A DNA stretch of 64,000 nt from Branchiostoma floridae (Eukaryota; Chordata; Leptocardii; Amphioxiformes; Branchiostomatidae), in the NCBI RefSeq assembly GCF_000003815.2, contig NC_049985.1:16107989-16171988 (forward strand), written 5' to 3'. The translations under genes were made by a program, and so were the position numbers. Below the pieces are notes generated by a model. That model searched no databases and had not been told where the DNA came from. It was given only the letters and a program-made list of their open reading frames with translations. Every line of letters begins with the position of its first letter. Positions within the stretch are counted from its first letter, which is position 1. This document shows positions 18,385 through 47,160 of this stretch, piece after piece.

Positions 18385-18645
18385 TGCAACCAAGTGGAAA
18401 GACCAAACACCCCCATATGCGATCGAATGATTGCAATGCCATCACATACTTTCGCATGAAGGGGAATTTTTTTAAGGACAGAATTCTTCCCAACGACTAC
18501 AAATAGAGAAAAATAGGTTATCGGTATTATTTTTGTGAACTTTTCTCGTTCACATTTGGTCATGTTCACGTGGCAAAACGATGGGTCACGTGATATACTT
18601 CACACGTTTCTGACAGCACGCGCGAGACGTGTCAACAAGGACAGT
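18385..18645 (+). promoter_or_regulatory. Promoter module of ANK-MYND gene A with two CACGTG E-boxes
   Basis: CACGTG is at 18567-18572 and 18587-18592, exactly 20 bp apart, followed by TTCTGACAGCACGCGCG. The same module precedes genes C (32133 and 32153) and D (42419 and 42439), also with 20-bp spacing, and the relic at 59002. Here it is cut off from the gene A start codon by a Helitron-like insertion, yet lies at about the same distance once the insertion is ignored. TCACGTGA sites are bound by bHLH-Zip factors (USF, MITF/TFE); which factor acts here is unknown. Confidence 0.6.
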
Positions 18646-18702
18646 CCCAAGTTTTTGGTTTCTATCGGATCTCCTATTTATATTTCAGCCATACCATAGG
18701 TA

Positions 18703-20085
18703 TGGTGAAATATATTGTATTCGTAATGTTTCTTTCTTTCTTTCTTTCTCCTGTCAAATTTTCAAAGCGATTCATCTCCGCCGTTTCTGGACCAAATGAC
18801 TTGAAATTTGGCACAAGGGTAGAGTGGGCCAATACCCAAATGTGTTTTTTTTATTTTTTTCATATCTGCTCCTTAAATGATTTTATTGAGGTTTTATTGC
18901 AACTTTTGGACCAAGACTGTATATTTTGGCCCCCTGTACCATGGTATTACATCCAAATGACCTGAAATTTGGCACAGAGGTGCCCTAGATACTTATTCAA
19001 AGGATCCATGTATAATATGTAGTATAAATCACTTCAAAATGGCTCCTTAAGGAGGTTTTTGTGGGAGAGTTTAGGATAGGTAAGGTTGGAGTGCCGAGGT
19101 CAACGACCTCTAGGTCATTCTGGTGTGTCAGGGCCACAGGTGTGCCAGGTAGATCCAATTATCTACCTACCTACCTAGTCCATAGACATCCAGGTGGTTG
19201 GTGGACAAGGTAAATCCAATTAATGGCCAGCCAATGAGCGAGCTTATTTTGCTGGAAGAGTCCATTGTTGGACAGGGGGTGTATTTTAAAATTTACTTTT
19301 AGACTTTGTTGATAATGCCAATTTTTTTAGCGGAAGTGTTTTCGCACTGAGCCACTTGACATAAGACTACTACTGGGACAGTCCATTTTTGCACATAGGG
19401 GGGGATTTTAAAAAAATCAGTTTTGGACATGGGTGATGATTCCGAATTCCATTTGTTAGATGGAAGTTTACCCCCACCTGAAGACTGTACATGAGGAGGA
19501 TTCGGCAGCCAATCAGCAAGCCTTGTTTTATCTGGAAGAGCCCATTCATGCACGGGGGACTTTTTTTTAAATTCAGTTTTGGACTGGGTTGCTTCTTATG
19601 CAAAGGCCATGTACTGTGAGTATTTCTGGACTTGTCTATTGTGCAATTTCAAACAGGGTGAGCTGGGAGATTCCATTCTACGACGAAGGGGGTATTTTTT
19701 TAAAATTCATTTTGTGGACTTCGCTGACTATTTTAGCTGATATATTTTTGGATCGCTCCACTTTACATAGGGGTATAACAGGAAGAGTCGATTCTTGCAC
19801 AGAGGGGGGATTTTTTGCAAATATGGTTTTGGACGGCTGATGATTCCAAATTCCATTTCTTAGCGGAAGTGTTTTTGGAGTCGTCTATTTTTTTGAGTCC
19901 ATTCTTGAAGGGGTTTTTGTAAGATTCATTTTTGCTCATAAGTGTGATTAGTAGTTAGAAGTCATTTTAAGCAGAAGTGTTCCATTTTTGCACATGAGTG
20001 ATTTTGGAACAGTCTATTGTTACATGAGGAGGGAGATGGCTGAAATATGCTGTATTTGCTCTCAAGCAAATGTCGGCCTTTCTAG
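18703..20085 (+). mobile_element. Helitron-like non-autonomous element upstream of gene A
   Basis: The 3' end has the Helitron layout: an ATTTGCT-CTCA-AGCAAAT hairpin (20054-20071), a 10-bp spacer, then CTAG (20082-20085) followed by T. The 5' end (TTCTCCTGTCAAATT near 18746) and the TGACCTGAAATTTGGCACAG motif are shared with the two copies at 28462-30537. The middle holds a degenerate tandem repeat of about 100 bp (GGAAGAGTCCATT...GGGGGGATTTT). There is no Rep/helicase. The 5' boundary is approximate. It ends 23 bp before the gene A start codon. Confidence 0.7.
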
Positions 20086-20108
20086 TTTAAATTAAAATTA
20101 TAGACGGT

Positions 20109-22636
20109 ATGGCGAACGATAATGCGAATAAAGATCTGATGTATGCCACCTTCAATGGCTCGGTTCAACGCGTTGAAGCATCATTGAAAGCTGGTAAGTC
20201 TAACCAAGACGTTGACTATTATTTCTTGATCTTTCTTCGAGTCGTGTGTTTCCGTGACATATACTGTATATAATGTAAATTATTGTATTTTCTGTTCCCA
20301 TAAGTATCATACTATCACAGTACGCGTGCAAAGCCCTCCAATAATTTAAAGATTCGGCTCCGGCTGTGTTTTTTTTTTGCGTGTTTTCATTATGAAATGG
20401 CGGGGCTTTCTATTTTGTCCTTTGTTTTTATTTGGCTCTCCTGAGTCCTGGACTCAATTTATTTTGTTAGTTCTTGCCGAGCGCCCCGCTAAGCTGGCCA
20501 CTGGAAGTGTAAACAGACCAGCATCTGTGCACAGTACCGTCTGTATTTAGAGTATTCCTGGGTTTGACCTCTCGCCGAGTTCAATTCCAGATTTTCCCGT
20601 CTATGTGGGCCTCATCATTTGTTGAGGACGTACTCTGCGTCTCGTCTATCGGACAATGCATGCTTGTTTGCAAGCAATTATAATGATAATCTGCAGCAGC
20701 ATGACGAAGAATTTTCCCGCCATTTTGAATTTTCGCGCAAGGGGTCACTGTTGGTCACGTGTGCACCGCAATGGAATCCTGCGCTGCGGATGTCCCGCGG
20801 CCGCGATACTCTGCCTCCTTGTCTGAAATAGTCTCTACCAGACTCCATAGGCTGATGGAGAAACCGTAGAAATGTACTCTTCTGGCCGGCTTACTCCTCT
20901 ATTTATTCCATATCTACTTGCGCGTAAATTCAAAATGGTGGGAAAATTCTAATCTCCAAGCAGATCTTGCTGTGGCAAATGGGAAGGACCACGGTGAATC
21001 TGATTTTAAACTAAATCACCAACCGTAGGTGCAGACATTGACTTCAATCAGCTTGGCCCTAGCTCTGGCTCATCTACAGCATTGTTCATGGCTTCCGCGA
21101 TGGGGCATGTGGATGTAGTGAGACTGCTGCTCCGCAAGGGGGCATCTGTGCAGAAGAGGGTTTTTCATAGAAACGCCCCTCTTCATGCTGCAGCCGCCGA
21201 AGGTAGGTCTGTGAATGCCACACTTACACCTAAATAAGGTTCGGTTCCACAAAAGTACGTAACCTCAATTTCTCCACCAGAAAGTCACAAGGGTCATCTT
21301 AACAAACATAAAACAGTATCAACCAGCTCAAACTCCGAGGACTCGAGCCCGCCGCTATAGAAGAAATCTCACCTTTGAGCCCCCAATTTCTCCTTATTCA
21401 ACCCGAAAGACCCAACACCTCAAATTCTTCCGCACGTCAACTAAACTGATTTCATAAAACGTCCTTGACCTGATGAATTTAACAAATTTTGACCAAAATT
21501 GGAAAGCTTAGACCCTACCTGCTCCTTCTGTTCTGACTAAAAATCTCTACCAGATGATTTTCAAGGATTTTACTTGGCACTATAATTATTAAAAAAAAAC
21601 ACTTCAATTTCCAGATCTTCGTGGCCTGGAGTCCAGCCTTGTTCGTTTTGGTCCGCTCCCGAAGTAGGGTAACTAATCTCCAAGCAGATCGTAGTGTAGC
21701 ATAAGATAGTGTGAAAAGCTGGCAGGGGAGTGAAGCCGACCTAGGAGTGTGTATATATGCTACCGGAGTATTACTTCGTGGAAGGCAACCTTTGCTTTAT
21801 ATGCATTTCTTTTGTCTCAAATCCAACCTAGGGTGGACAGAGATAGTGGAACTGTTGGTGCAGCATGGTGCAACATTAGACGTACGGGACGGCTTCCAGG
21901 ACACTCCACTCATGGGTGCCGCTGACAGCAACGAAGTCGGCACAGTTCGACGACTGATTGAGCTTGGAGCGAGACCTGACTTGACCGACGGTCTTAAAGC
22001 CTCGAGGCAAGTTCCACATCCATCCTTCCACCAGACTATCTATAGATTCAATGAATGACGAATGAATGATTATTTCTATGTTGACAAACTTTAAAGTAAA
22101 GCTGGGCTGACTCGTCGCCTTGTGTGCATGATGCATGTTTTGTACTGTTCCGGCAATTTCCCTAAAAAATGAGTCACACCTTTCACCACGTAGGTTTGGG
22201 ATAGACGACGAAAAACACTCTGTGTCAGAGAGTGTAAAGCTGCTACAAGAGGCGAGGAAGTCCAAGCTGCTGAGATGCTGCAACCCTAAGTGTGGCAAAC
22301 CTGGCTACAGGTAGGTTTTGCTGATGCACGTGGCTGATGACGGTTCAGCCACCGTCAGATATCTGATTTCCACTTCGTCTCGCTTTGTCATCCGTCCTAT
22401 GTGCAGATATTGTTCTTGACTCCAAAGAAAGTATATTTCTATGTCTTTGCTGTACAGCCTACAGAAGGAAATCAAATTAATTTTTGTTCTGAATTCTACA
22501 CAGTCCTCTAAATAGCTTGTGTCTCTACAGGAAAACCCTGAAGCTATGTGCCAGATGCAAGCTGACCCGCTACTGCAGCCGTGACTGTCAGATACAACAC
22601 TGGTCTGTCGGACACAAGAAGTGCTGTGGGCACTAA
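20109..22636 (+). CDS. ANK-MYND protein, gene A (218 aa)
   Basis: The five exons are 20109-20193, 21029-21202, 21832-22006, 22194-22310 and 22531-22636, with phases 1,1,2,2 and 657 nt in total. Exons 1-3 encode about four ankyrin repeats, for example GHVDVVRLLLRKGAS in exon 2 and TEIVELLVQHGATLDVRDG then TVRRLIELGARPDLTDG in exon 3. Exons 4-5 encode a MYND zinc finger: RCCNPKCGK, LCARCK, RYCSRDCQIQHW, GHKKCC. All expected Cys/His ligands are present. Ankyrin repeats and MYND fingers bind proteins, so an intracellular adaptor role is inferred; no signal peptide or membrane segment is seen. Intron 3 uses a GC donor (AG|GCAAGT). The C-terminus ends at CCGH, shorter than its paralogues. The closest family known to me is ANKMY2-like, but this protein is much shorter. 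Confidence 0.85.
20829..20970. mobile_element. MITE fragments in gene A intron 1
   Basis: GTCTCTACCAGACTCC (about 20832) matches the end of the TIR element at 28391-30805. TAATCTCCAAGCAGATC (about 20951) matches the CTCCAAGCAGA family. Only one arm of each was seen. Confidence 0.45.
21670..21760. mobile_element. CTCCAAGCAGA-family MITE fragment in gene A intron 2
   Basis: TAATCTCCAAGCAGATCGTA is followed by GCATAAGATAGTGTGAAAAG, the left half of the family consensus seen at 22929. The right half is eroded. Confidence 0.5.
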
Positions 22637-22928
22637 TTTGAAGGACCAACCCCCTTCCAAAATATGGTTTTGTTTATGGCAAATCGCAACCGAGCTTAAG
22701 TGCATTTTAACCAAGTCATTAAAGAATCCTCGGCCACTACTAGTCCCTCGACTTAAACCCAGCTTGGAGAATAAACACTTTTACAAGTTGGGCATCTTTT
22801 ACCCGTTTGCATGTTATTGCTTATCACTCCACACAAAGACCTGTTGATCACGCGTTGCCGCTACAGCCATATCAAATTTAGCATAAGAAAGTGGGATGTT
22901 TTTTAAGCCTTGGCTAAGACTAAACGAT

Positions 22929-23065
22929 TAATCTCCAAGCAGATCCTACGGTGCCATAAGATAGTTTTCAAAGCTGGCCAAGGAGTGTAGCCGGCCAAGG
23001 GAGTCAAACGGGCACCGGATGTTTGATACTATACATTACGCACCGTGGATCTGGTTCGAGATTAC
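22929..23065. mobile_element. CTCCAAGCAGA-family MITE, full copy
   Basis: TAATCTCCAAGCAGATCCTA opens and GGATCTGGTTCGAGATTA closes the element. Inside, AAAGCTGGCCAAGGAGTGTA is followed by GCCGGCCAAGGGAGTCAAAC. It is an almost exact inverted copy of 41883-42019. Confidence 0.7.
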
Positions 23066-25570: not shown

Positions 25571-28500
25571 TCATGTGGCTGTAGCTGTACTGACTGATTG
25601 ACTACATACATGACTCACACAAAAATGACAATCATTTTGTTTGTCATTTTCTACCAAGTACGCCATCGCTTTTTGCATGGGGTGTGGTTCCTCATCAATG
25701 TACTTGTCCCGTCCACAGCACTTCTTGTGTCCGACAGACCAGTGTTGTATCTGACAGTCACGGCTGCAGTAGCGGGTCAGCTTGCACCGGCCACACAGCT
25801 TCAGGGTTTTCCTACATAAGATAACAGATACAAATGTTGATCAGAGACTGGGTCAAAAGTAAATAAAAAAAGCATTTTGGTTTGTAAGAAGAAACTTAGA
25901 GAAATTTTCACCTAAGTAAAGCGAGGAAAGTTGTGTAAAGTGTCTTTCCCAAGAGCACAAGATCGGTAGCATGGCAGCTGGATTCGAACCTGAGACCTCT
26001 TGGTCCTGAGCCGAACATGCTGCCACTGCACTACGCGGTCCCACTGTCTTTATAAGACTCCTGATTTCAAGATTTGCAGACAAGATGAGAGAAGTATGGT
26101 AAGGAAAAATATAACAACGACGGAAGCATAACCAACAAAACCTACCTGTAGCCTGGTTTGCCACACTTAGGGTTGCAGCATCTCAACAGCTTAGTCTTCC
26201 TTGCCTCTTGTACCAGCTTTATACTCTCTTTTGCAGAGTTCCTCACCTCTGGTACCAGCTCAAAACTGTCTTCTGCAGAGTCATCTATCCCCAACCTAGT
26301 GAAAGGTGCGACTCATTTAGGGAACAAAATAAAGTGTTTTCTAGAGTACTTATGGTCTAGAAAGTTGTTAAATCATGTAGCGCACATATACGTTACACAG
26401 ACAGACCATCTCATACACACACAACGGTGGATAAAAACAAACACAAGTCGACAAGTCAGTCCAGCTACATTTAGAGACCTTATACCTCCTTGAAATATTG
26501 CAATTATGCAAATGACACATGTGGGACACATTCGAATTCTATCCTGGGAACACTACTTCAAACTCAGGACCTCTTGGGCCTGAGCCCAATGCGCTGCCCA
26601 TTATACCACGCGATCAACAAATGTCTAGAAACACAGATACACACACACACACACAGAGACAATGGCATACACATCCAAAATAATACCTCCATTTTTCATA
26701 TATTCATTCTAACATATTCTGATAGAAATGTGTAAAACTTACTTTCTGGCTATAGAACCATCGGTCAAATCAGGTCTTGCTCCAAACTCAATCAGTCGCT
26801 GAACTGTGTCGACATGGTTGTTGCCACATGCAGCCATGAGTGGAGTGTTCCTGAAGCTGTCCCGTACATCTAATGTTGCACCATGATGCACCAGTATTTC
26901 CACTACTTCTGTCTTCCCTAGGTTGGATTTGCGACACAAGAAATACATATCAAGGAAACGTTGCAGTTCACAATGTATTACGCAAAAAAAATCACATGTA
27001 GATGTACTAACACACGTCACAAATATAAGTTCCCATCATTCGATTCCAACAATTAAGTTGTTTTGCCATGTTTGTATTAAAGAAATTATGCAAATCAGTT
27101 TTACATTTGCATGTTTGCTTATTTACTTATTTATTTATTTACAGAAAGAGATCTGAGAGGTGTGGGTAACAGGATTAAACAACCTTTACAAGGCCTGGTA
27201 TCGGTTTCAACTTTGTCTCACCTGCCATGAATTACATGTGTTACATTTATGGAAAACAATGGAATGATAGAATTTCCTTATTGGTGATATAAATTAAGAA
27301 ACTGGTTTACATAATGTGCATATGATTATTATAAACATCATTCTTTTATTGAGTTATCCTCTTCGGAAATTGCTGACATAAATGCTCCTGCTACTAAGCT
27401 AACTCAAATTTATGTCACTGTGAACGTTTTGCAATGAAAAGTCGTATCGATTTCTGATTCGAACTTCAATCAGCGTACAACAGACAAGCCTTTTTTTACG
27501 AAGGAACCTTAGTCTAACCATTGGACGCTGCTTCATGAAGGGGAACCATGCCCCCCATGGTTCTCTTCACCACGGAGGCCCCCTTGCTGAGCAGCAGTCT
27601 CACTACATTTATATGCCCTCTGTGGCAAGCAACATACAAAGGCGTGCATGGTGGTAAGCTTGCATCATCACCTGGTCTCCAGTTCTCCAGTTGATCAAAG
27701 TCAATGTCTGCACCTGCGTTTGGTGGACCATGAATAAATAAAATTAATATCACAAGGAAAATTTCATCAATACTGTCCTTGATATTATTTTACAAGGAAG
27801 GAAGTCAGCACAAGAGTAAGCCTGGGCACCATCCTAGTTTTAGCATGGCTCCTTGCACTTGCTACCCTAAATAAATGAGGTAACAAGTCGACAAAAGCTT
27901 CACCTTCTGCATTGGTATTCCAGTGCTGATTCAATGGTCAAAGCCGCGGAACTCTCTTCAGCAAATTCACCCAGCCGTTCTTGAGTTATCTTGTTGACAG
28001 ACTAGTCGCTAGGGGGCCCAAACTTATGTCACTTATTTCTGAGCACAGGCACTATCCAATTCGTGACCATAGCATGTTCAGAGCACAAGATCTATCAAAA
28101 CCGGAAGTTGTGCTGCAGTACCAACGGAAGCAGCTTGGGGGCCCAAATTCTCATACTTTCCAGTTTTCATCACACCCCACTAACAGACCAATTATGAAAC
28201 CAATCCATCCAGCCGTTCTTGAGTTATCTTATTGACAGACAGACAGACAGATAGACCAAGGAGGTTTTAAAAAAAGGGATTTTTAACCTCCTTCAATGGA
28301 TAGACAAACGCTAGTGGAAAATATAACCTCCATCAGTCCATGAAATTTCATGGAGGTAATAAACTGAATAGACATTGATCGCCAGTCTGAGACTGTTTCT
28401 AGTCTCTACCAGACTCCGGATCGCTGGAAAATAGTAGAAATGGAACAAATAGAGAGGAATACTAGAAAGGCCGACATTTGCTTGGGAGCAAATACAGCAT

Positions 28501-31048: not shown

Positions 31049-32251
31049 TCCGTTATAGTATAACTTTATAAGAACTGCCGCTGTTCCCACTTTTACGCGT
31101 GTTTTGACGATGTCTCAGAGTTCGAACTGAAGGTGTTCTGTCACATAAACTGTAGTCATATGAGCAGCATGAGAACGTAGATGTTTAGAAAAGAAGTTTT
31201 CTATCACTACAGCATTTATAGTTTAATTACATTTGTTTTTATACATGTTCTGATTTGTTTTTAGTGATTGATGCACAAATATGCTAAGATATAGCTATCA
31301 TTCGCGCGTCTGGGTGTGTGCGTCTCGCGTTTGGCTGCTATCTTTGCTTACTCCTGGGATCCGGGGGGCAACTGAGTTACAATTTTTCCCAGTGACATAC
31401 ATAAACGCGTTGATCCTGTGGGAAAGTGGAGGATACAAATGTGTCATGATATCAGGAATCAAAACTTCAAACCATACACTCAAACCCTCAACCCTCGTCA
31501 ATTATATCAAGAAGTTTTTATTGATAACAGCTCCTTGATTATATCACTGAATTACAGTTTTTGATTACACTTTCAACTTGACTTCCTGTCATTGATCGTT
31601 GTCCTTGCTGTTGTAGGCTATGTAATAAAGTAACCCTTCGTCTCATAAATGTAATGGTTTTTGCCCATCTTTTAGCATAAAAGCAGCCAAGATAGTATTC
31701 TTCAAGCAAAAGTATCATGCCCCGGTCGTTTTTTGGGCGTGTTTTAGGCGTTTTTGTCGGGCATTCTATTGTGTACTTTTTTTTTTTCATGTGCAGTCCG
31801 CCAGCCAAAATGGCGAAAATTAAGAAAAAAGCACAATATAGAAAGCCCAATAAAAAAAGCCTAAAATTACGTTGCAAACTTCTGCTCAAAACTTGGAGAG
31901 AATCAAGATGGCAGCCAAACGCAAGAAGCACATACAGTACCTCGACATGCGAATGAGAGCAATGTTTGCGCATATCTGTCCATCAATAACTACAAGCAAA
32001 ACAGGTACTTGTATAGAAACAACAACAACAACAATTATACGGATAAAAACCCAGATTTTCAAGATCTTTCAATACTTCTTTTCCGAAGATCCTCTCTAAT
32101 TCTCTGCGTTCTCACACAGTCCTCCAACAAATCACGTGTCAAAACAATAGGTCACATGACCAAACAGCTTCCTCTCACGCGTCTTCAGTTCAAACTCGCA
32201 CTTTGTCAGAACACACACGTGGAAAGGTGTCCGACAGCGGCAGTAAACGGA
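31049..32251. promoter_or_regulatory. Divergent promoter region between genes B and C
   Basis: Genes B (minus) and C (plus) are transcribed away from this 1.2-kb region. Both sides carry the same leader motifs: AGCAGCCAAACGC, GCATATTTGTG or equivalent, CTTCAGTTC-AACTC, then GACAGCGGCAGT-type sequence before ATGGCGGA. On the C side, CACGTG (32133-32138) and CACATG (32153-32158) form the 20-bp E-box pair. On the B side the E-boxes are not intact. An inverted duplication of a gene with its promoter explains the symmetry. Confidence 0.55.
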
Positions 32252-35200: not shown

Positions 35201-38200
35201 TACGCGCGCTGGTTATTGCGTTTGGCCACGTACAAGTTCCACATCGAGCACAGGCCGGGAGCCAGCCATGGCAACGCTGACGGTTTAAGTAGAGGGCCCT
35301 GTTCCCAGTGCAAGAAAAGCGACTCGGAGGACAGTGAGCCAGTTAGGGTTTTCGCAGCTCGGCAGGCTGATCCAGATGGGCTCAACCCAATCCCTGCCTT
35401 GTCTCAGAATGAGATTAGACGAGCCCAGCGTGCTGACCCGACTTTGGCTTGCCTCGTATTGGACGTGCAAAGAGGCACTAAACCCGATAATCTCGGCCTC
35501 CAAAGGCTCACCCGGGAACAGCGCACGCTCTATGCTGATTGGCCATGTCTAGAATTCTGGGACGGCGTCCTGTACAGAAATTGTGATAGGAAAGATGGCC
35601 TGGGACCCCAGCTCCAACTGCTGCTCCCAAGGACGCTCGTCCCTCGCGTGCTTAAGATGGTCCATGACGAACCGCTTGGTGGTCACTTAGGCGTAGAGAA
35701 GACCCTTAATAAACTTAGGTCTGCTTTCTACTGGCCCGGCATGCGTCACGACGTGACTGCCCACGTGTCAGGTTGTGAGACCTGCATACGGACCAAGAGC
35801 GGCAGGCGTAAACAGAGAGCCCCCATGCAGCCTAGCGCAGTCGGTTTCCCAAACCACCGAGTCGCCATGGACATAGTCGGCCCCCTTCCTAAGTCGCGTG
35901 CTGGCAATAAGTACATTTTGGTCGCGACAGACTATTTCACAAAGTGGGTTGAGATTTTCCCCATGGAGAATGAGACGGCAGAGTCTGTAGCCAAATGTTT
36001 CTACAAAGGTTGGATCTGCGTCCACGGTCCTCCACAGTCTCTACACACAGATCAGGGCAAGAATTTCGATTCTGTGTTGGTGAAGGACCTTTGTCGGCTA
36101 ATGCAAATTCATAAGACTCGGACGACGCCGTATCATCCCCAGTCAGACGGTCTTGTTGAGCGCTTCAACAGGACAATGGGAAATATCTTACGCGCCTACG
36201 TGTCGCCCACCCAGCGCGACTGGGATGAGCACTTGCCCGCGGTCAAGTACGCGTATAATACAAGTTGTCACGCGACAACCGGGTTCTCGCCCTACTTCCT
36301 GATGCACGGTCGCGAGGCACGTCTTCCCATTCATGTAATGGCGCGCATCCCTACTAGCGTCGGTGAGGTTCATGAACACGTGGAGGTATTACGGAACCGC
36401 CTACCGTCTGTGTTCAATCTTGTACAGGAGAAGACACAGCAACAGCAATGTAGACAGAAGGAGCTCTATGACAAGAAAATTCATGGCAAGCCCTATGACA
36501 TTGGCGACACCGTCTTCATCCTGAACAAACAGGTGCCAACGGGGCTTGCGCGGAAATTGGCGCCAAAGACTAAAGGCCCATTTGAGGTCTTGCGCCGCAT
36601 TAGCGATCAGGTCTACGAAGTGCGTGGCATGAGAGGGAGGGCACAGCAGAAGGTAGTATGTGTGAGTTTTGAGAACATGATACCCTTCTCTCCCACCCAG
36701 GACGACCCGGATTACGATCCGCGGAATGACCGACCCCGTCGGCCTGCCCGCCCTAACCGTAACCGGCGCCAAGAACCTTCCCTTTCAGAGGATCCAGTGA
36801 CGTCCGGGGAAGAGTCCTCCCAGGGCACTTGTTCTGCTTCCGTTTCAGGTTCCGACCAGCAGTCTGGCGATGAAGATGACCAGGACGAGGCGTCCGTCCC
36901 GAAGACACTTGTTCCGCCGAGGGAGAGACGACCAGCTGTGAATCCGGACGTCTCCAGTGACAGCGAAGAGGAGAGGACTTCGACGAGCCATGCTGCTGAC
37001 GTCCCGAGACCACGACGACATCGCCGCAGACCGTCGTACCTGGAGGACTTTGCGTTGGACTCTGACTCGGATTACATAGATTTAACATAGTGTGTTATTG
37101 TTAAGTTGTGCTGAGCAAAGACAGACCACTTCGTGTCTCGCGGTTCTGATGGTGCAAATCATTCGGCTGGGTGTGCTGGTGCATTGGTTGTTGTAGATTG
37201 TGTGTTGGTTCCTGTTTCACCTGTAAATCACCGTGGCTAGGTCCCCCGGAAGTTAAGGTTATATGAAGATTTTTTTTTTTGTTATCAAGTACGGATGGAA
37301 CTCCGGAGCTGAGCTGAGAGGATGGGTAGGTATACACGTTTTCTGTTTTCACGCCGTAGCCAATGTAGGCGAGCTCAAGTCTCCTGTTGGTGTCGTCTGC
37401 GTGCTGCGTGTCCATCTCTCGAGGAATTGGATGGGGATTTGAGTATCTAATCTCAAAGGTGATTAGCAGTAAATCTCTCCCCATGCCAGTGAGTATGTGT
37501 TAAGGTTACTTAGGTGTTTATTCGGGTAACGACGGACAAGTTTAAGTGATTGACCGGGTAGTATACATGGGATTCTGCATGCCTTCTCTGCTTCTGGTGT
37601 GTTTGGCCGCCTTGTCGTCTGCTATGCACCTGCCACCGCCGTACACGTTGGAATTTTGTCTCTTGCGAAGCACACATGTAAATTGTTGTCTGTATCAGAC
37701 ACAGTGTAATAAAACCACATGATTATTGCTTATGTATTGCTGATGTATTGCGTACGCATTGCTTATGTATATGTTTATCTGTATTATGCTGAACTTTTGT
37801 ATTGTATTGACCATATGCAGAATGTGAGTGGCCAATGGCTGGTGAGAGCAGTCTGATTGGTCACAGAGATATAGATAATGCTGAATATCTGTACTATGCT
37901 GAAATTTTTGTATTGTATGGACCATATGCGGAATGTGAGCGACCAATGGCTGGTGAGAGCAGTCTGATTGGTCACAGAGAGCTAAATAATGATAAATGAC
38001 TGATGGTACCCACTTTTGTTATTTTATATCAACCTGTTGTATTTTTGTTACACCTCCCTTGTAATGTTATGGTATCTTAACATTTGAGGACAAATGTTCG
38101 GTGAGGGGGAGGTAGTGTAACGGCCATGACCTTTGACATATGAGATAATTAGGTAATGACCGTCTAGACCATATGAGGAGGAGCTGACATTAGCATATTA

Positions 38201-39878
38201 GGTAATCCCTGATTGGCTGGATGCCGACAGCATCCAACCAGCTTACCTGTGATGGGCGGAGTTATACATCCTATTGTCATGCTAGTTAACCTTAGAGATT
38301 GTATGAAGAGATTTAGTCAGTCTCGTGCCCCAAGGACTCAGGTGAGGTACTTTGGTAGGGCTTAGTCCCTCTGTTGGATTGTGTACTAGTTATTAGTTAG
38401 ACCGGCTCTCTCTGTAAATATACTTAGATCTCTGTATCATTATCCTAGACCTGTATCCTGTAACTGTAACTTGCTGTAGTCCTAAGTGAAACAACCAGAG
38501 GGGCGAGTAAGAACAGAAAGAAACAACACCCCGACTCCCGGGATTCGAACCCGCGCCGAACCCGGGCAGCCGGATCACAAATCGAACGTGCAAACCGTTC
38601 GGCCAAAAGGCTTAAGCCGTTAGGCGTCTTCGGTTTAGCAGTCCTTGAACACCACTGTTACACTTCATATTATAATCTCTCTGTTTTTATGAACGTTCCC
38701 GAGCCTTTTCCGTGTCTCCTTTCACCCCCAGATGGAAGTTAGCAGCTTCGTTTGTTACGGTGTCCACTCGGCGAATGATGAAGATTTCCCTTTCTTTCCA
38801 CTCATTGCGTGCCAGTGTTTCCCGCGCGATGCGAAGTATGACCCCAAGTTCCCGGATGAATGACGTTACACACCGGAATTAGCGGAATCCTATCCACTTG
38901 CGCGTTCACACTGCCGAATCGCACGAATCGGGACTCCCTGCAGCGCAGTTCTATCCACTTGCCCCAGTTCTATTCACCTCCCCGAGTTGGATCGCGAAGG
39001 ATTCACTTCGACGAAATCCAAGTGATTTGGGGGCGTTCTCACTGCAGATACTTATTCGAATCGGGTCGTCTTATTCGGATAACATGTTTTATTCAAATCG
39101 TTTTTCTGAGTGTGAATATGGTCTGTAGGGGTCTTAGCCTGTATGTATGTATGTATGTGCCTGTGTAACTATTGATCGGTTATTGACTATGTGTAACTTT
39201 TTCTTGACCCTGAGTGCTATAAAACGCATGTATATTGTTATGAGTCACATCTTTCATTAGGTTAGCGGTAACAGCCGAAATTCGTCATGACTTTGCGGAA
39301 GAGAGTCTGAAGCTGATAGAAGAGGCGAGGAAGACCAAGCTGTTGAGATGCTGCAACCCTAAGTGTGGCAAACCAGGCTACAGGTAGGTTTTGCTGCTGA
39401 CGGTTCCATCATTGATAGATTTTTTCGCACTATACTTTTCTAAATTTTGTAGCCTGACCATAATCGCGCACCTGGCGGCCAGCGAGAGATTGTGTAAACC
39501 CAGGCTACAAATGTTGCAATTGACACAAATGTTTCCTTTTAATTTCTTTGTAGCTTATAAAATGAGATCGAAAGATTTCTGTGAATTTCCTTATTAGTCA
39601 ATGAACAGGATCTGTGCCTGTTATACATCTTCTACAGGTCAACTGGAACCCTGAAGCTATGTGGCCGTTGCAAGCTGACCCGCTACTGCAGCCGTGACTG
39701 TCAGAAACAACACTGGTCTGTCGGACACAAGAAGTGCTGTGGGAATGATGCGTACTCTATCGAGGGGTCAGACCACTTCCAATTGGGTCAAAAATTATGT
39801 ATGTACTTAGGAGAACAACATCCAGAACTCTTAGACTACCAATTCTGTATAAATCTTGCTTATTCGAAGAATAGTTAA
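32252..39878 (+). CDS. ANK-MYND protein, gene C (262 aa), exon 1/2 fused, retroelement in intron 3
   Basis: The exons are 32252-32495, 33333-33513, 39261-39383 and 39638-39878, in total 789 nt. The first exon equals exon 1 plus the end of ancestral exon 2. The old donor (GCTG|GTAAAT, 32337) is still visible, but the ADIDFDQ half of exon 2 is gone and about 25 former intron codons read through in frame to LELVRLLLRKGASLVKRTMG. A 75-nt mini-intron (32337-32411) would also keep frame. Exon 3 has two extra residues (QDPDGFQE). The MYND finger is complete (RCCNPKCGK, LCGRCK, RYCSRDCQKQHW, HKKCC) with a tail GNDAYSIEGSDHFQLGQKLC. Intron 3 (5.75 kb) holds a 5'-truncated Ty3/gypsy element in the same orientation, yet frame and splice sites on both sides are preserved. 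Confidence 0.8.
32920..33110 (+). mobile_element. SINE with tail shared with the 5S-headed SINE
   Basis: TGCTTGGCCATTTGGATC and CCAGGGTCAGCTCAGCTCCG form the head. AGGGACGTAAAATGGGGGTC, GAGGTGCTTCGAGCACG and CACCTACTGGCTACCC form the tail. The tail matches 11564-11690 (minus). The head matches, inverted, 42845-43020, where GTGGCCTAATGCTGC and GAGCTCGATCCCAGG look tRNA-derived. Confidence 0.65.
33767..37090 (+). CDS. pol: Ty3/gypsy retrotransposon Pol (RT, RNase H, integrase), 5'-truncated
   Basis: One open frame of about 1,105 codons with no in-frame ATG near its start; the first clear retroelement sequence begins about 33846. The order of domains is Ty3/gypsy type. The RT has VDYRGLNN, LDLRAAYMQV and the catalytic YLDD at about residue 243. 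RNase H has DTDASDVGIGG and a TDHSAL site. The integrase zinc finger is H-H-C-C (HLGVEKTLNKLRSAFYWPGM then CETC). The integrase core has D (VAMDIVGP), D (LHTDQGKNF) and E (HPQSDGLVERFNR). A GPF-type C-terminal module and an acidic, Ser/Arg-rich tail follow. Gag, protease, primer site and 5' LTR are absent, so it is not autonomous. It sits sense-oriented in intron 3 of gene C. No frameshift or stop was seen, so insertion is recent. Confidence 0.92.
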   Translation, partial: SAVRFTLFLHWSRDFSTPCPAIPSDISSETTRGAEVRAELEPLFDLSHISDGSHKEQLLDLLVKYEDIFSRNQEDMGMTSKATHQIDTGDAPPVRLPPRRVSPQAKETIGQELDKLTRLGFIEESISPWGAPVVLVNKKDGTKRMCVDYRGLNNVTKKSSWPLPRIDDTLDALSGSQLFSTLDLRAAYMQVPLEEAAREKTAFTTPFGLFQYKRLPFGLCSAPSTFARLMENVLRGLQPHVCMAYLDDTIVHSDDAIANHLANLEAVFQRYREANLKLNPEKCMFLVTEVEFLGHVISGTGVRTDPKKVSAAAEWPTPRTVRQVQQFLGFANYYRRFIQDFAKKAKPLTSLTRKNTRFKWTEECDNAFRELKQHLVSAPILAYPDFSKPFIVDTDASDVGIGGVLSQKQDGLERVIAYYSRSLTPVEQRYCVHRREMLAAVEFITKHECYLQGDDEFLLRTDHSALQYLMNMKNPSSQYARWLLRLATYKFHIEHRPGASHGNADGLSRGPCSQCKKSDSEDSEPVRVFAARQADPDGLNPIPALSQNEIRRAQRADPTLACLVLDVQRGTKPDNLGLQRLTREQRTLYADWPCLEFWDGVLYRNCDRKDGLGPQLQLLLPRTLVPRVLKMVHDEPLGGHLGVEKTLNKLRSAFYWPGMRHDVTAHVSGCETCIRTKSGRRKQRAPMQPSAVGFPNHRVAMDIVGPLPKSRAGNKYILVATDYFTKWVEIFPMENETAESVAKCFYKGWICVHGPPQSLHTDQGKNFDSVLVKDLCRLMQIHKTRTTPYHPQSDGLVERFNRTMGNILRAYVSPTQRDWDEHLPAVKYAYNTSCHATTGFSPYFLMHGREARLPIHVMARIPTSVGEVHEHVEVLRNRLPSVFNLVQEKTQQQQCRQKELYDKKIHGKPYDIGDTVFILNKQVPTGLARKLAPKTKGPFEVLRRISDQVYEVRGMRGRAQQKVVCVSFENMIPFSPTQDDPDYDPRNDRPRRPARPNRNRRQEPSLSEDPVTSGEESSQGTCSASVSGSDQQSGDEDDQDEASVPKTLVPPRERRPAVNPDVSSDSEEERTSTSHAADVPRPRRHRRRPSYLEDFALDSDSDYIDLT
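37764..37990 (+). repeat. 112-bp tandem duplication in the gypsy 3' region
   Basis: Two adjacent copies share ATGCTGAA, TTTTGTATTGTAT, GACCATATGC, CAATGGCTGGTGAGAGCAGT and CTGATTGGTCACAGAGA. It lies between the pol stop and the 3' LTR and is non-coding. Confidence 0.75.
38100..38115 (+). other. Polypurine tract
   Basis: GGTGAGGGGGAGGTAG lies immediately before the 3' LTR, where the plus-strand primer of a retroelement is expected. Confidence 0.7.
38116..38662 (+). mobile_element. Ty3/gypsy 3' LTR
   Basis: It begins TGTAACGGCC after the polypurine tract and ends CCACTGTTACA, giving the TG...CA termini with a TGTAAC/GTTACA inverted repeat. The length is 547 bp. No matching 5' LTR was found in the window. 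The 18-bp motif TGAAACAACCAGAGGGGC near 38487 also occurs at about 33850, at the truncated left end of the element. Confidence 0.8.
38526..38616 (-). repeat. tRNA-like sequence inside the LTR
   Basis: On the minus strand, TTTTGGCCGAACGGTTTG resembles an A box and GCGGGTTCGAATCCCGGG contains a perfect B box with a matching T stem. The acceptor and anticodon arms do not pair well, so this is a tRNA-derived segment, not a confident tRNA gene. Confidence 0.45.
39453..39508. mobile_element. TAGCCTG...CAGGCTA mini-element in gene C intron 4
   Basis: GTAGCCTGACCATAATCGCG and GTGTAAACCCAGGCTAC are the ends. It has the same ATCGCG-type interior as 18281-18358 and 24428-24533. Confidence 0.5.
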
Positions 39879-40960
39879 GCACACGATGCCGCTACAGATA
39901 TGTAGTACTTACAAATTAACAAGCAGTACGTTACCAAACCTTACGCTTATCTTGCGAATGATATGAAGGTGTCTTTGAAGAAAATTATGTCTAAAAGCTC
40001 ATACTTTAGGTCATCTGTTTGAGTTCTCTTATAAAAAAGTAAACACGTTGAAGGTGTACTACACATACACACGAAGTTTAAACGTAAGAAGATATAACAA
40101 ACACTGAAATGCTTGTTGTATTGATGGTATCATCTACTTTCTCATGAATATGGGAAAAATAAAGCTCGTAAAGGATTAGATTTTACGGGGTTTGGTTTTT
40201 GACAAATGTCTCCCAAGGAAAGGACACTGGGGTACCTGTGCGTGTCTGCTTTAAATTTTGTATCATTGGTCTGCCTAGTGCTTCAACATTATCTAGAGCT
40301 TCAACATTATCATTCTCTTGCATTCAATTAGCCTTGGATATATTTAAATGTCTACCCTTTGTATTATTGCTAGTCCTTCAGCTGTGGGCATGACGCCTAG
40401 TAGGCTACTCCGTCCAGGGACCAGACCGCTCCAGACATGTCCAACTGGGCGAAAAAATGCTTCTGTATATGGAAGAACATGTACAATAAACATAACTCGA
40501 CCACTTTTGTAAAAAAAAAAATCTTTGTAAAGCATTATTGAGCACCCGATACCGCTACAGCCGTATCACAATTCTGTCTAAGGACATGGTTCTGGTGTCC
40601 TTGTAAGATAATAACGTCCAAAGTTCATGTCAGCTATGCCATTGCTTGTTGCACCGAGTAGCCAAGTAGTCAGGCTTGTGAAGATGTCATTATCCCTGTG
40701 CTTAGAAGATCACTTGTGCTATTTTCAGTTGGATTTTTTGCCATGAATTATTGAACTAACATAAACATGTCTCATAGATATAATAACTTTCTGTTTTTGC
40801 TCATCTCTTAGCATCCTTGTCTTCTTTTTTTGAAACTTCAGTTTAAAAAGCAGCCAAATAAACTTTCATGCAATGTTCGGAAATCCTCAATGAATAAATA
40901 TCTATCTAAGTATAGATATATAGAGGAGAGGTAACGTTAGAGATAGAGAAAGAACATGAC
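39879..40960. other. 3' flank of gene C with duplicated intergenic DNA
   Basis: Segments around 40160-40383 align with 58480-58760 (AAGGAAAGGACAC, TAGTGCTTCAA, TGTCTACCC and CTTCAGCTGT in order). Segments around 40545-40640 resemble the flanks after genes A and D. These are pieces of decayed tandem duplications. No intact gene. Confidence 0.5.
40391..40497 (+). pseudogene. Relic of an ANK-MYND terminal exon (tail only)
   Basis: GTGGGCATGACGC, CAGGGACCAGACCGCTCC and CTTCTGTATATGGAAGAACA match the tail of the last exon (compare 46068-46160 and 58014-58107). Early stop codons (TAG TAG after CATGACGCC) and absence of the MYND part show that it is dead. Its 3' flank also matches paralogue flanks. 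Confidence 0.7.
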
Positions 40961-41882: not shown

Positions 41883-42019
41883 TAATCTCGAACCAGATCC
41901 ACGGTGCGTAATGTATAGTATCAACCGTCTCCGGTGCCCGTTTGACTCCCTTGGCCGGCTACACTCCTTGGCCAGCTTTGATACTATTTTATGGCACCGT
42001 AGGATCTGCTTGGAGATAA
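41883..42019. mobile_element. CTCCAAGCAGA-family MITE, full copy
   Basis: TAATCTCGAACCAGATCCAC and GGATCTGCTTGGAGATAAAA are the ends. The interior matches 22929-23065 in inverted orientation. Confidence 0.7.
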
Positions 42020-42239
42020 AAGGAAACCTACTGTGCACCGGTGTAAGAAATAACGTATATCTTCAGAATAATGACAAGTTCTAACGGTTGGACTGTAAAG
42101 GGAAAGAAAAACACAGGCATACAAACATTGTGCACACCCTTCGGAATAGCCAATTTACCGCTCTCAGAGAGCACCAGAGCAAGCAAAAGAAAGCTAGCGA
42201 TCTGCAGGTCGAACCTCTGCTTGAACAAAATGTAACGGT

Positions 42240-42530
42240 CCAAAGCAGCCAAACGCAAGAGACACACCCACCCACGTCCTTTTTCGCATATTTGTGAATG
42301 AATCATGAATCACTAAAAGCATGAATAGGAAAATAAATTTATCCTTTAGAAGAAAAACCTTCTGATGGAAAACCAGCTTTTCAATTCTCTTTTCTAAACC
42401 TATACGTTCACATATGGTCACGTGGCTAAACAACGACTCACGTGACCAAACAACTTGTGACCACATGTGTCTTCAGTAGTCTCAGTGGGGAACACATACA
42501 CAGATGTCCGGAAACGGTGGTCCTAACGAA
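42240..42530 (+). promoter_or_regulatory. Promoter module of ANK-MYND gene D
   Basis: AGCAGCCAAACGCAAGAG, TTTTTCGCATATTTGTG and AATCACTAAAAGC are followed by CACGTG at 42419-42424 and 42439-42444 (20 bp apart), then CTTCAGTAGTCTCAG. The second box lies in GACTCACGTGACC. The order is that of the gene C promoter. Confidence 0.6.
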
Positions 42531-45500
42531 ATGGCGAAAAATGCGAATGGATTTCTAGTGTTTGCGGCTTTGAATGGATCAGCTGAGGGCGTCAACGCAG
42601 CATTGGAAGCTGGTAAAGACGAACCAAGTATACTACAATAGCACTAGGCATTATTTGTTTGGTTCTAGACAGATGGGTTCAATTCTAGACTAATGACTGT
42701 AATCTAGGGTACACTTAATATCATAGAGAGCCTGTCAGGCCAGGTAGGAACAAGGTAGTTCTATTTTAGGCGCCTAAAATAGAACTACATTGTTCCTACC
42801 TGGCCTGACAAACTCTATTAAAGGGAGTTTTCTATGATATCAAGGCTACCCTAGATTCCAGTCCATTTTACGTCCTTTACGAAAGACGAAAGCAAGCCAA
42901 GCTTACAACATGTCCGAGGCGAGCCGACCCTGGGATCGAGCTCACGATCAGGCCCACAGATCAAATTGATGGAATTGGATCCAGATGGCCAAGCAGCATT
43001 AGGCCACGGAGACACTAAACAGTTTAAAACTATCTCTTTCTCCGCTAGACGTGGCCGGCCATATGGGCTCATGGTGCATAATAAGGCCAGGAGAAACGGA
43101 AAGTTACTGTATTAAACGTTAAATTCTTTTTATCAGTTTTTTATCAGTTTTCGCCTGGTATTTTGGGTCGGTTACTTTCGGTGACATCTTGTTTTACTTC
43201 ACATTTTCATTTTCATTTACAGGAGGAATCAGACTTGCAGAAATGCAGTAAATAACTTCGCTTTGAGTTGGGTTTGAAAAGACGCTTATTCATATGTAAA
43301 TCACAAATAAGGATTTTCACACAAGTGCGAAGTCGGGGCCTGCATGTGCGAAGTACAGTGCACTGGTGACACCTTTTGATCTTCTCCGTGCTATTCGGGC
43401 AATTTACATAGTCTCTACCAGACTCTGGGTCGCTTGAAAAACATAGTAATTGAACAGATAGATGAGTAAGCCGACCAGAGAAGTATAGCCGGCTAGGGAA
43501 CAGCGCGCTACCTACGAAGGTGAACGAAAATTTAAAGCTGACAGAAAAAGAAGAAGCGTAAAACACATCAAACACAGCCGGGGCCGACAATTTGCTAGGA
43601 GAGTAGAGAATCACACCCTTGGGTTGATATTATAAATCTGTACTGATCACTTTCTTATGTTGCAATACCTAATGCCTTGGAAAGTATGAAATACGATTGT
43701 CGCTATTCGTGTACTAGTATGTTGGATTCATATTTGCCTTCCTTGCAAAATTATGTGAAATAAATGAAATATCTATTGTGGGATCCATTTGTACCAAATC
43801 ATGGGGTTGTTTTGGATCACAGGTGCAGACATTGACTTTGACCAGTTTGACGGCTGGAACTCGGGTGATAGCACAACCTTACCACCATGCACGGCATTGT
43901 TCATCGCTTGTCTCAAGGGGCATGTGGATATAGTGAGACTGCTGCTCCGCAAGGGGGCGTCTTTGGTGAAGAGAACCATGGGCGCATCGGCTCCCCTTCA
44001 TGCTGCAGCGTCCAATGGTACGTTAATCACAATGCTATTCTCCAAGCAGAGGTTGGGTCGTAGTTTTTACTGGCCCGCTTCCCCTTTAAGGGTTTGATCC
44101 GTTCCGTTTTGCGGCAGAGGTGAGGGAAGCGAGCCAGTAAAAATCCCGACCACTATAGCTACATGTACTATCTTCGCAACCTCTGCTTAGAGAATAGGCT
44201 TAAAATAGGTAAAACAAATGCTTGTCTGTTAACGTTAAGCGCCATATTTCCAAATGTTAACGGTAAGATGTAATTGACTGCTCTTGGATCATGGGAATCC
44301 AAAAAATATTTAAACAAGAAAGCTTCCGAAAAAAGCTAGCCGGTGCGTATTTTGGAAAAAAGCCTGGATGTTAAACAAAATCACATGAAAAAAAAGAGTT
44401 TTTAAACTTCGAATTACTGAATCGGTCTGTCTTCTATATAAAAAAAGGAGAATTCATAATTTACATGACAAATAAATAGTAACAAGTGGGGATCGTACCC
44501 ACAATCCACGGCTGCAGAAGCAAATTGCTTAGACCTTAGGCCGGTCGGCCACGCTGACTCAAATGCGTAATCAAACCTATGGAAGGGCTATTAGAAGGGT
44601 TTGGTTAAAACAAGGAGGTCAAAAATCACGGCCCCAAATCGATGTTTCCTGGACGAGTGATGTTGAAACTGATTCGTAAACAAAGGCCCGTGCTAGCCTG
44701 GCGAGATGCAGATTGGGTGTGATTCACACTCGCGGCAAAGATCGAAACAATAGGAAGTCTCTCCTTTTTTTAACCTCCTTGGTTAAAATCACCGATCCAT
44801 GCATCCATCCATGGATCCATGTCGATTCCAATCCTGTGCGTAAAGGTAATACCGCGGCAGAGCAGCAGATCGACTAAAATTCATGATTAACGGTTTTCTT
44901 TGTGTTGGAACAAAGCTTAAACTTTACAACTTTTGTTTGGATTATACCATCACAGATGAGTGTTTATTCGTGTGGTTACATGTTCGCGGAAGGCAGCATG
45001 TCTTTATGAGTATTTCTTGTGTCGCAAATCCAACCTAGGGCATACAGAGATAGTTGAAATGCTGGTGCAGCATGGTGCAACAGTAGACATACAGGACGGC
45101 TTCTACGATACAGCAATCATGGTGGCATGTCGCCACAAACATATCGACACAGTTCGGCGACTGATTGAGTTTGGAGCAAGGCCTGATTTGACAGATGGTT
45201 ATATGACCCAGAGGCAAGTGTCACACATTTTATTTACATTAGAACAGAAGGAACAATTGTAACCTCGGCAAAAACTGTTGAGGTATTGTTTACCAAAAAG
45301 TAGGTACTCAAGCAACTGGATATGGTTTTGGAAACGGTCAGACGTTTCAACTGGAATCCGCCAGTGTTCCTCAGTGACACTGAAGTGATCTGGAAGAAAC
45401 AGGTCTTTTATACTCTAACTATGAATGAGGCAATTTCAGATGTCCAATAGGAAACGTTGTAAGACAATTCAGACTGAAGACAATTTTTGGTATGGTTTGT

Positions 45501-46067
45501 GTGTTTGTGTGTGTGTATCATGTGTGCTTGTCTGATGTCAATACACCATTAAAAGCCAGTGAAACTTTTTAGACCATAAGTGCACTTAAGGAGTCTATAT
45601 GTAGAAAATGTATCGATATGTCGTTCCCTTACTGAGTCATACATTTTTCTAGGTTGTGGAAAGAGGTCGAAAACTGTGACTCTGTGGAAGAGAGTGTAAA
45701 GCTGGTACAAGACGCAATCGAGACCAAGCTGTTGAGATGCTGCAACCCAAAGTGTGGCAAACCAGGCTACAGGTAGGTTATGCTAACAGTGGTTCCGTGG
45801 TTAATGAATTTTTCTTCGCACATTACTTTTCTCATCCTCCGTGCAGATGTTGCAATTGACACAAAAAAAGTAGATCTATGTACATGTTTCAATCTAAATT
45901 TAAGATCGAAAGATTTCTTTGTGAATTTAACTCAGTCCCTGATCAGCATTTGTACCTGTTACATCTTCTACAGGAAAACCCTGAAGCTGTGTGGCCGGTG
46001 CAAGCTGACCCGCTACTGCAGCCGTGACTGTCAGATACAACACTGGTCTGTAGGACACAAGAAGTGA
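42531..46067 (+). CDS. ANK-MYND protein, gene D (221 aa, truncated by UGA in the MYND finger)
   Basis: The exons are 42531-42612, 43823-44017, 45039-45213, 45653-45772 and 45974-46067, with phases 1,1,2,2 and 666 nt. An upstream in-frame ATG at 42504 would add nine residues; 42531 is chosen because it aligns with the paralogues. Exon 2 carries ADIDFDQFDGWNSGDSTTLP and GHVDIVRLLLRKGAS, exon 3 TEIVEMLVQHGATVDIQDG and TVRRLIEFGARPDLTDG. The MYND finger runs RCCNPKCGK, LCGRCK, RYCSRDCQIQHW, GHKK and then meets UGA where paralogues have Cys-Cys. After the UGA the frame stays open for 34 codons and resembles paralogue tails (CGHDVYSEERPDGLQLAKKF). Intron 3 uses the GC donor AG|GCAAGT, as in gene A. 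The product may be partly disabled. Confidence 0.8.
42733..42810. repeat. Near-perfect 78-bp palindrome in gene D intron 1
   Basis: Two 39-bp arms meet at GGCGCC (42769-42774) without a spacer. They start TGTCAGGCCAGGTAGGAACA and differ at one position. Weaker pairing (TATCATAGA/TCTATGATA) extends outward to about 42718-42840. Confidence 0.85.
42845..43020 (-). mobile_element. tRNA-headed SINE
   Basis: On the minus strand, GTGTCTCCGTGGCCTAATGC, GAGCTCGATCCCAGGGTCGG, CTCGGACATGTTGTAAGC and AAAGGACGTAAAATGGAC follow in order. The head looks tRNA-derived, and the tail begins like the SINEs at 11564 and 32920 but is truncated. Confidence 0.55.
43405..43510. mobile_element. Copy of the TCTCTACCAGACTC element
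   Basis: TAGTCTCTACCAGACTCTGG and GGCTAGGGAACAGCGCGC match the arm and centre of the element at 28391-30805. No opposite arm was found. Confidence 0.45.
44036..44196. mobile_element. CTCCAAGCAGAGG-family MITE in gene D intron 2
   Basis: TATTCTCCAAGCAGAGGTTG and CAACCTCTGCTTAGAGAATA are inverted termini with one mismatch. Inside, TTTTTACTGGCCCGCTTCCC pairs with GGGAAGCGAGCCAGTAAAAA. Confidence 0.8.
44481..44563 (-). pseudogene. tRNA-Leu-like relic
   Basis: On the minus strand, GTCAGCGTGGCCGACCGGCC plus TAAGGTCTAAGCA resembles the acceptor and D arm of a leucine tRNA, and GTGGGTACGATCCCCAC its T arm. The anticodon loop lacks the expected U33 and the acceptor stem is broken. It is a pseudogene or SINE head in intron 2 of gene D. 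Confidence 0.5.
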
Positions 46068-47160
46068 TGTGGGCATGACGTGTACTCTGAAGAACGACCA
46101 GACGGTCTCCAATTGGCGAAGAAATTTCTACTGTACATAGAAGAACATGAACAACATGAGCAACAAACATGACTCTTGTATAAAACATTGGATATGAAGC
46201 GATACCACTACAGCCATAATCATTATAGTTTACATGTCACAAGCTACAATCACTCAAGCACGTAGCCCTATCTTACTATGGACATGATTCAGTTGTCTTC
46301 GAAGTAAATGATGTCCAAAAGGTCACTCTACGTTTCATCGATGTTCCTAGTTTATCTAGTAAATCAAACACCATGAAGGATTCCGTATGATGTATGAATG
46401 TAAGAAGATAGACAGTGAAAAGGTTTGTTGTAAAGTGTAGTTTTCTTGTTTTCCACGCGTATATTCTATCCAAATGTCATGTTTTAATTTTCATTTGCTA
46501 ATCTTATAGAAGTTAAGTAAAGACGTTGAAGTGTAACACGGAAAGTAGGATTTTTACGAAGCCTCTTTGTAAATTAGCCTATTTCCCTATATCTGTTGTT
46601 AGATAAAATATCGTAGAATAAAGTCATGTGTAACGCTTTATATTCTCACCGAATCGTGTTTCATTTAATAAATGTAACCTGCTACTGAACCAAGGATTTG
46701 AAGGAGGTTGAATCGCACAAAGTATGAAAGAAAGAAGATATAACAGTTATCGGAAAGGCTTCCGATATTGCACACTAATACTAAAGAGAAACACTAGTCA
46801 ATAATTGTTGATTTCGACTTTTTTCAGAGATGTAACGGTAACAAAAACAAACAAACTAACAAACCTATTTCGACAAGACCTTACCCCGACGCTTCGACAC
46901 TATTTTCTCTGTCATGAAAAGGAAAGGACGCATATCTAAGCCTTTTTGTAAGTTGTTATGATTGGCTACACTGTTCCAGGCTTCATAGGTCGCAGAACAA
47001 AGTACAGAAATAAACGGATAACCAGTATCCGGCAGAGGAGTATAGTTTACCACGTTGGTACTTCTATCATAAGGGGACCTTCTCGCCCGGCCATTAATAC
47101 TTCTCTTTAATTAACCCGAGTATAACCTTCGTAGTGACCGCTGGCTCAATGTGTCAATCC
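46068..47160. other. Gene D 3' flank; no further gene
   Basis: Begins with the still-open tail of gene D (to UGA at 46170-46172). It continues with the CGATACCACTACAGCCATAA flank shared with the paralogues, then non-coding DNA. Confidence 0.5.

Follow-up and report, generated by a model that had tools for sequence, protein, structure and literature searches.

The ANK-MYND genes of the window

We analysed a stretch of 64,000 nucleotides (nt) from Branchiostoma floridae (C7:16107989-16171988, in a genome of 513 Mb in 431 contigs), in the following called the window, which contains four genes, A to D, for small proteins with ankyrin repeats and a MYND zinc finger. The initial annotation had described a cluster of four such ANK-MYND genes at 18385..46172, and Pfam matches to Ank and zf-MYND are indeed found in all four predicted proteins. 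This observation is largely right, and it is far too small in scope: the four genes belong to a family of about 80 copies. Beyond what was described before, the analysis adds two relics of exon 5, GC as the donor of intron 3 in some genes, pairs of E-boxes, and relatives in other parts of the genome.

The models of the four genes were read from splice sites and reading frame, and the splice sites are predictions. Gene A (20109..22636, plus strand) consists of exons 20109-20193, 21029-21202, 21832-22006, 22194-22310 and 22531-22636 and codes for 218 amino acids (aa) with a short tail. Gene B (25571..31048, minus strand; exons 31048-30967, 27713-27519, 26917-26743, 26295-26146 and 25811-25571) codes for 280 aa, and its E-boxes are degenerate. 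Gene D (42531..46172, plus strand; exons 42531-42612, 43823-44017, 45039-45213, 45653-45772 and 45974-46172) codes for 221 aa. These three genes share the five exons and the phases 1,1,2,2 that had been proposed. Their acceptors are AG and their donors GT or, at intron 3 of A and D, GC. For gene C (32252..39878, plus strand; exons 32252-32495, 33333-33513, 39261-39383 and 39638-39878; open frame of 262 aa) the five-exon structure does not hold, its exons 1 and 2 being fused. Exon 3 is as constant as had been noticed: it has 181 nt in C and 175 nt in the other three genes. Likewise, the MYND exons of the four genes are nearly identical while the exon-4 linkers and the C-terminal tails vary, and the protein sizes agree with the 218-280 aa given before.

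In gene C the reading frame of exon 1 continues across 45 nt that were once intron and enters an exon 2 that has lost its 5' part (244 nt in total). According to this model a deletion removed the greater part of intron 1 together with about 80 nt of exon 2 and kept the frame. Reading the 45 nt as an intron would also be in frame, yet such an intron is very short and is not favoured. The intron of gene C between exon 3 and the MYND exons contains a retroelement (33850-38500), which we take to be Ty3/gypsy-like; its RVT_1 and integrase matches (Pfam) lie in two pieces, and a repeat search for copies of at least 60 nt revealed no long direct repeat at its ends.

The eight Cys/His ligands of the finger are present in A, B and C, judged from Pfam and an alignment by eye, while D lacks the last Cys. 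At the codon of this last zinc cysteine gene D carries a TGA, behind which 34 tail codons are still open. Selenocysteine at this TGA was considered and is rejected for now, as there is no match to a selenocysteine insertion sequence (SECIS) in Rfam: the sole match in the whole window at gathering score is a 5S rRNA (11708-11827, minus strand, 45.1 bits), and in 45900-48500 no match was obtained with E values up to 5. Among the family MYND matches one further TGA was flagged (C7:21374418), and it lies inside the intron before exon 5.

Two relics of family genes were identified in the window. An exon-5 tail relic (40381..40540, plus strand) starts directly behind the MYND core and is 86% identical at the nucleotide level to exon 5 of C7_15507575m. 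An exon-5 relic of a fifth family member (57966..58140, plus strand) is frame-shifted and 88% identical to the same exon. The first intron of gene B holds an array of a 162-nt repeat unit (28458-30500), in which a 300-nt stretch recurs at 99% identity 1039 nt further on; a run of 100 N (30662-30761) follows.

Size and distribution of the family

In the genome search for MYND exons 150 of 156 candidates were scored, so that the counts are lower bounds. At least 116 MYND matches were found, of which at least 81, sorted by place, are assigned to the ANK-MYND family: 50 on C7, 23 on C199, three on C198, two each on C10 and C11, and one on C14. Those on C7 form four clusters, with 13 exons at 15.5 Mb, 5 at 16.1-16.3 Mb, 4 at 17.06-17.08 Mb and 28 at 21.4-21.6 Mb. 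The remaining 35 of the 116 matches lie outside the family places. A search with exon 3, in which 150 of 295 candidates were scored, gave at least 86 matches with E values up to 1e-5, 85 of them in family places; the single outlying match on C18 reaches 36 bits, compared to at least 51 for all others. An exact 30-mer of the MYND exon is present in 75 copies in the genome, while its reversed control is not found at all, and chance is therefore excluded as the source of the family.

The numbers indicate a predicted family of about 80 copies, nearly all in the four C7 clusters and on the two unplaced contigs C198 and C199, where copies outside the fetched stretches were counted by place and match alone. 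Within this genome there is thus good support for the proposal that a small family of adaptor-like genes has expanded by birth and death. Some of the C198 and C199 copies could be allelic; the three C199 entries among the matches listed match the 15.47-Mb stretch of C7 at exon scale.

Three further places attracted attention. The 21.4-Mb cluster contains a repeated unit of some 20.5 kb that comprises several genes (C7:21357001-21397000, L029-L032). On C199 (232001-242000, L034) two family copies with equal match scores lie 2.8 kb apart and probably represent a very recent tandem birth. The family gene at C11:6233001-6243000 (L033), near which a 1245-nt block is 97% identical to C7 at 15.478 Mb, probably moved recently between contigs.

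Gene structure and relationships of the copies

For the comparison of gene structures 260 kb were fetched; 240 kb together with the window were modelled, which gave 37 rows, and the last 20 kb were scanned only. The rows include partial copies and one MYND match that does not belong to the family (C5_16824453p), and their exon-5 tails and exon-4 starts are automatic picks. About 190 kb of the fetched DNA lie within the approximately 0.9 Mb spanned by the clusters, so that most of the clustered sequence is outside the sample. Complete five-exon models without internal stop make up 18 of the 37 rows, namely A and B plus 16 automatic models; in one of the latter exon 3 starts at an N gap. Exon 3 measures 175 nt in 15 of the 28 rows in which it was called, and exon 1 measures 82 nt in 17 of 24.

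The strict conservation that had been stated for the four genes does not extend to the whole family: exons 3 and 4 are fused in three relatives (268 nt). Exon 2 of C7_21368812p contains a stop. Among the 28 rows with a called donor of intron 3, 11 have GC and 17 GT. The number of GC donors is a minimum, since GC was penalised when donors were picked and since C14_16501343m and C7_15495252p, both counted as GT, have gcaagt at the donor place of their relatives. GC and GT donors are intermixed on the tree, and the sister pair C7_15556695m/C7_15543688m clearly differs. Five gene pairs are arranged head to head with 449-1204 nt between them, including B and C with 1204 nt from ATG to ATG.

In the family the MYND finger is split by a phase-2 intron after the first Cys pair, which sits in CCNPKC, compared to CxxC in the non-family fingers that were read. 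These are eight of the 35 non-family matches (L001-L008), and a single open frame contains the entire finger in each of them; among the remaining 27 there are several whose match starts only at profile position 4-19, so that their fingers may be split as well. Two of the eight stretches, L004 and L005, hold MYND genes with open frames of 317 and 345 aa that, by eye, start with parallel-beta-helix-like repeats.

A tree was built from exons 2-4 of 31 sampled genes, and unsampled copies could change the nearest neighbours on it. Gene B is the sister of a gene at 15.529 Mb (support 99), gene C of one at 15.523 Mb (88) and gene D of one at 15.490 Mb (97), while gene A is weakly placed (57). The nearest relatives of B, C and D are thus found about 0.6 Mb away. 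The notion that birth and death are caught within this one locus is not supported, and a local tandem birth of the four genes finds no support in the tree for B, C and D. The branching pattern suggests that the window cluster is made up of older, displaced paralogues and did not arise in a local burst.

Paired promoter boxes

Paired CACGTG boxes, 20 nt or two turns of the helix apart, are located upstream of gene D (42419..42444, plus strand; boxes at 42419 and 42439). The same arrangement occurs 1.5 kb upstream of the gene A ATG (18567..18592, plus strand; 18567 and 18587) and is probably a displaced promoter element of that gene, which suggests that the promoter was moved off by inserted sequence or by an intron in the 5' untranslated region. 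Gene C has CACGTG boxes at 32133 and 32216 (32133..32221, plus strand), and a CACATG follows the first of them at a distance of 20 nt.

Within 300 nt upstream of the ATG, CACGTG is present in 18 of 24 genes but in 8.3% of background stretches; for TCACGTGA upstream of the ATG the corresponding figures are 16 of 24 and 3.4%. The spacing of neighbouring boxes, determined for 20 pairs, is 20 nt in 11 pairs, 15 nt in four and different in five. A genome search for TCACGTG-13N-TCACGTGA gave 53 places; 43 of them lie in the family clusters, two of these being overlapping triple boxes, and 10 elsewhere. The reversed-pattern control gave one forward and one reverse match. Two points speak against a common control of the genes through these boxes: six of the 24 genes have no CACGTG in the proximal 300 nt, and the box pair is inherited, so that the copies are not independent. 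Outside the family clusters, C17 carries two box pairs with the 20-nt spacing 138 nt apart (C17:6674350 and C17:6674488), where perhaps another gene is under the same control.

A constant MYND core

Over 24 genes, the 33 exon-5 codons of the finger have a proportion of synonymous differences (pS) of 0.09, and those in the middle one of 0.03. A sliding-window analysis of the ankyrin exons gave values of 0.19-0.59, and the tail has 0.49. Exon-5 positions 30-99 are 94-100% identical at the nucleotide level in 32 genes, and over the next 40 nt or so to each side identity drops to about 0.5. Many codons of this MYND core of about 70 nt are identical in all 32 genes. In 13 disjoint near and 13 far gene pairs, pS of the inner 23 exon-5 codons is 0.034 and 0.025, whereas in exon 3 of the same pairs it rises from 0.187 to 0.313. 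For the half of the finger encoded by exon 4, pS is 0.216 in near and 0.223 in far pairs, and the proportion of nonsynonymous differences is similar to that of the exon-5 half. Purifying selection on the protein alone is rejected as the cause of the near-identity of the finger in the MYND exons, because the synonymous sites of its exon-5 part are frozen and those of the exon-4 half of the same finger are not.

These data leave two explanations to be weighed. It is likely, as judged from the sequence comparison, that the MYND finger is exchanged among the genes by gene conversion. The sole common variant of the core, ATA/AAA (Ile/Lys), requires 11 changes on the tree of exons 2-3, compared to 10.6 when shuffled. 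Of the exon-4 sites at the linker end (columns 31-37) 10 of 13 keep a tree signal (P below 0.05), while toward the finger (columns 38-56) none of 14 does; in the exon-5 core three of nine variable sites keep it, all near the core ends. Several sites in this shuffling test have too few variants to tell. A runs test on 276 pairs placed six above the 5% level, five of them with the run in the MYND part of exons 4-5.

Alternatively, the core may be kept by selection at the nucleotide level, for example as a splicing enhancer, as the target of a small RNA or antisense transcript, or through an overlapping function. The sharp borders of the core, its invariant codons and the equally low synonymous difference in far and near pairs all speak for such constraint. 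In addition, and to the detriment of gene conversion, the variable core sites taken as a set are no more shuffled than those of exon 4 (observed/shuffled changes 0.83 and 0.81, respectively). On the other side stand the ATA/AAA variant, which is shuffled relative to the ankyrin tree, although rapid mutation or selection switching could have the same effect, and the runs at the MYND end, although a low rate there also lengthens runs. We regard nucleotide-level selection as a serious possibility, but a less probable one than gene conversion, which we consider the likely process.

A variable ankyrin face

The ankyrin exons show the opposite behaviour. Comparison of the site models M1a and M2a gave twice the log-likelihood difference (2dlnL) of 57.6 for exon 3 (28 genes), with a nonsynonymous/synonymous rate ratio (omega) of 3.5 in 12% of the codons, and of 33.5 for exon 2 (31 genes; omega 2.3, 16% of the codons). 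When only genes from the window and the 15.5-Mb cluster are used, 2dlnL is 34.0 for exon 3 (17 genes) and 23.9 for exon 2 (16 genes), and the exon-3 data on the exon-2 tree give 66.8. With the donor end trimmed, exon 3 still reaches 50.3, compared to a maximum of 11.9 and a mean of 2.9 in 24 simulations under M1a; such simulated nulls were made for exon 3 only. At the same time, 43-56% of the ankyrin codons have an omega of about 0.1 under M1a.

Sites with a posterior above 0.5 are found, in our own numbering of the ankyrin units, at positions 2, 13 and 14 of unit 2, positions 1, 4, 5, 10, 13 and 16 of unit 3 and positions 2, 10 and 13 of unit 4; none of the numbered units has such a site at positions 17-33. 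Sites above this threshold also occur in the loop that precedes unit 2 and at the exon-3 donor end. The selected unit positions are presumably those of the turn tips and the inner helix, which face the target. They were compared to the variable positions of DARPins, which we take to be 2, 3, 5, 13, 14, 26 and 33. Posteriors are higher at these positions than at the rest (Mann-Whitney p 3e-6), and values above 0.8 occur at five of 21 DARPin positions and three of 76 others (Fisher p 0.011). In the alignments shown, the query aligns without gaps over units 2-4 to the DARPin chain 6mol and to the ankyrin chain 4rlv.

Some observations point away from diversifying selection. Three of the six exon-3 sites above 0.8 are situated at the alignment end beside the donor and were dropped in the trimmed test. 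The nonsynonymous rate at DARPin positions relative to the overall synonymous rate is 1.24 over all 300 pairs, but 0.72 in 12 disjoint nearest pairs, with which relaxed constraint may be compatible. Furthermore, gene conversion or recombination can inflate site tests. Because of the nearest-pair ratio of 0.72, despite the site models, positive selection in the ankyrin exons, acting mainly on the target-binding face, is considered likely but not proven.

Possible function

From these patterns we would describe the family as a co-regulated repertoire of small adaptors with a variable binding face and a constant finger, a proposal whose chances seem to us evenly balanced. The proteins are probably intracellular. 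Each copy would bind, through its ankyrin face, a different or changing partner protein, partner binding being putative, and the common MYND finger would couple the bound partner to one shared effector. A basic helix-loop-helix leucine-zipper factor of the MiT/TFE/USF kind may switch on the copies together. The MYND exon would be the path by which unequal exchange and gene conversion spread and renew the array. The pattern of selection is in keeping with the recognition of partners that change quickly, for example proteins of pathogens or rapidly evolving receptors of the host. More tentatively, and with rather low confidence, the family may be seen as a natural "DARPin library", an intracellular innate-defence repertoire of about 80 adaptors with a diversifying face, a MYND end converted across chromosomes and a common two-box promoter. 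It counts against such a working repertoire that part of the family is dead, D being damaged, C altered and relics being present.

A sensory rather than an immune role would follow if the proteins act in trafficking like ANKMY2, with the ankyrin part holding cyclases or chemoreceptors, the MYND finger holding the maturation machinery, and the expansion tracking the number of clients. Domains and their order are as in ANKMY2/DAF-25 (three ankyrin repeats, MYND), and diverse clients would also drive diversification of the binding face; the copy number, however, differs, as do the sizes (218-280 aa compared to 388-440 aa in PMC2991253), and we consider this role unlikely, though worth keeping in mind. 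Mostly neutral birth and death of a repeat- or recombination-driven tandem family, with relaxed surface positions and no common role, would account for the relics, the stop in D, the fused exons in C and in three relatives, the exon-2 stop of C7_21368812p, the equal match scores of the C199 tandem pair and the nearest-pair ratio at the binding face, but is rather unlikely in view of the strongly constrained share of ankyrin codons, the 18 complete models, the retained promoter pair and an exon-3 M2a result far above the simulated nulls.

If the adaptor repertoire is real, a basal chordate would possess small ankyrin binders, each with a variable and a constant part, that belong to none of the receptor classes known to us. 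Promoter signature and frozen exon would make the repertoire directly testable, since most of it could be read with primers placed in the frozen core.

Comparison with known systems

Among the titles and abstract openings listed from 5.39 million open papers, a scope that leaves aside subscription papers and preprints, none was found that describes such a repertoire. The nearest known protein is ANKMY2/DAF-25, which to our knowledge is encoded by one conserved gene per genome. All four proteins of the window resemble it in having ankyrin repeats followed by one C-terminal MYND finger (in D without the last Cys) and in the proposed adaptor logic. According to PMC2991253 and PMC12774363, guanylyl and adenylyl cyclases depend on ANKMY2/DAF-25 for their way to the cilia. 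The former paper describes ANKMY2/DAF-25 as well conserved among chordates and gives lengths of 388 and 440 aa, in contrast to 218, 280, 262 and 221 aa for A to D, which agrees with the earlier remark that these proteins are shorter than ANKMY2. The family further differs by its at least 81 MYND exons, at least 85 exon-3 copies and its probably diversifying ankyrin face. Because of size and copy number it is not filed as ANKMY2.

The TCACGTGA palindrome of the promoters is shared with the CLEAR/M-box promoters bound by MITF, TFEB and TFE3. In contrast to these, the boxes of the family are paired, most often 20 nt apart, and the family's factor is putative. DARPins are engineered ankyrin binders in which the same repeat surface is varied on a fixed scaffold; they are designed libraries, whereas the present set is natural, genomic and equipped with a MYND finger. 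The MATH-BTB and F-box families of nematodes are tandem adaptor families with selected substrate-binding domains. Like the ANK-MYND family they combine many copies, a variable binding domain, a constant linking domain and birth and death, but their domains are different and the link to ubiquitin ligases belongs to the nematode families.

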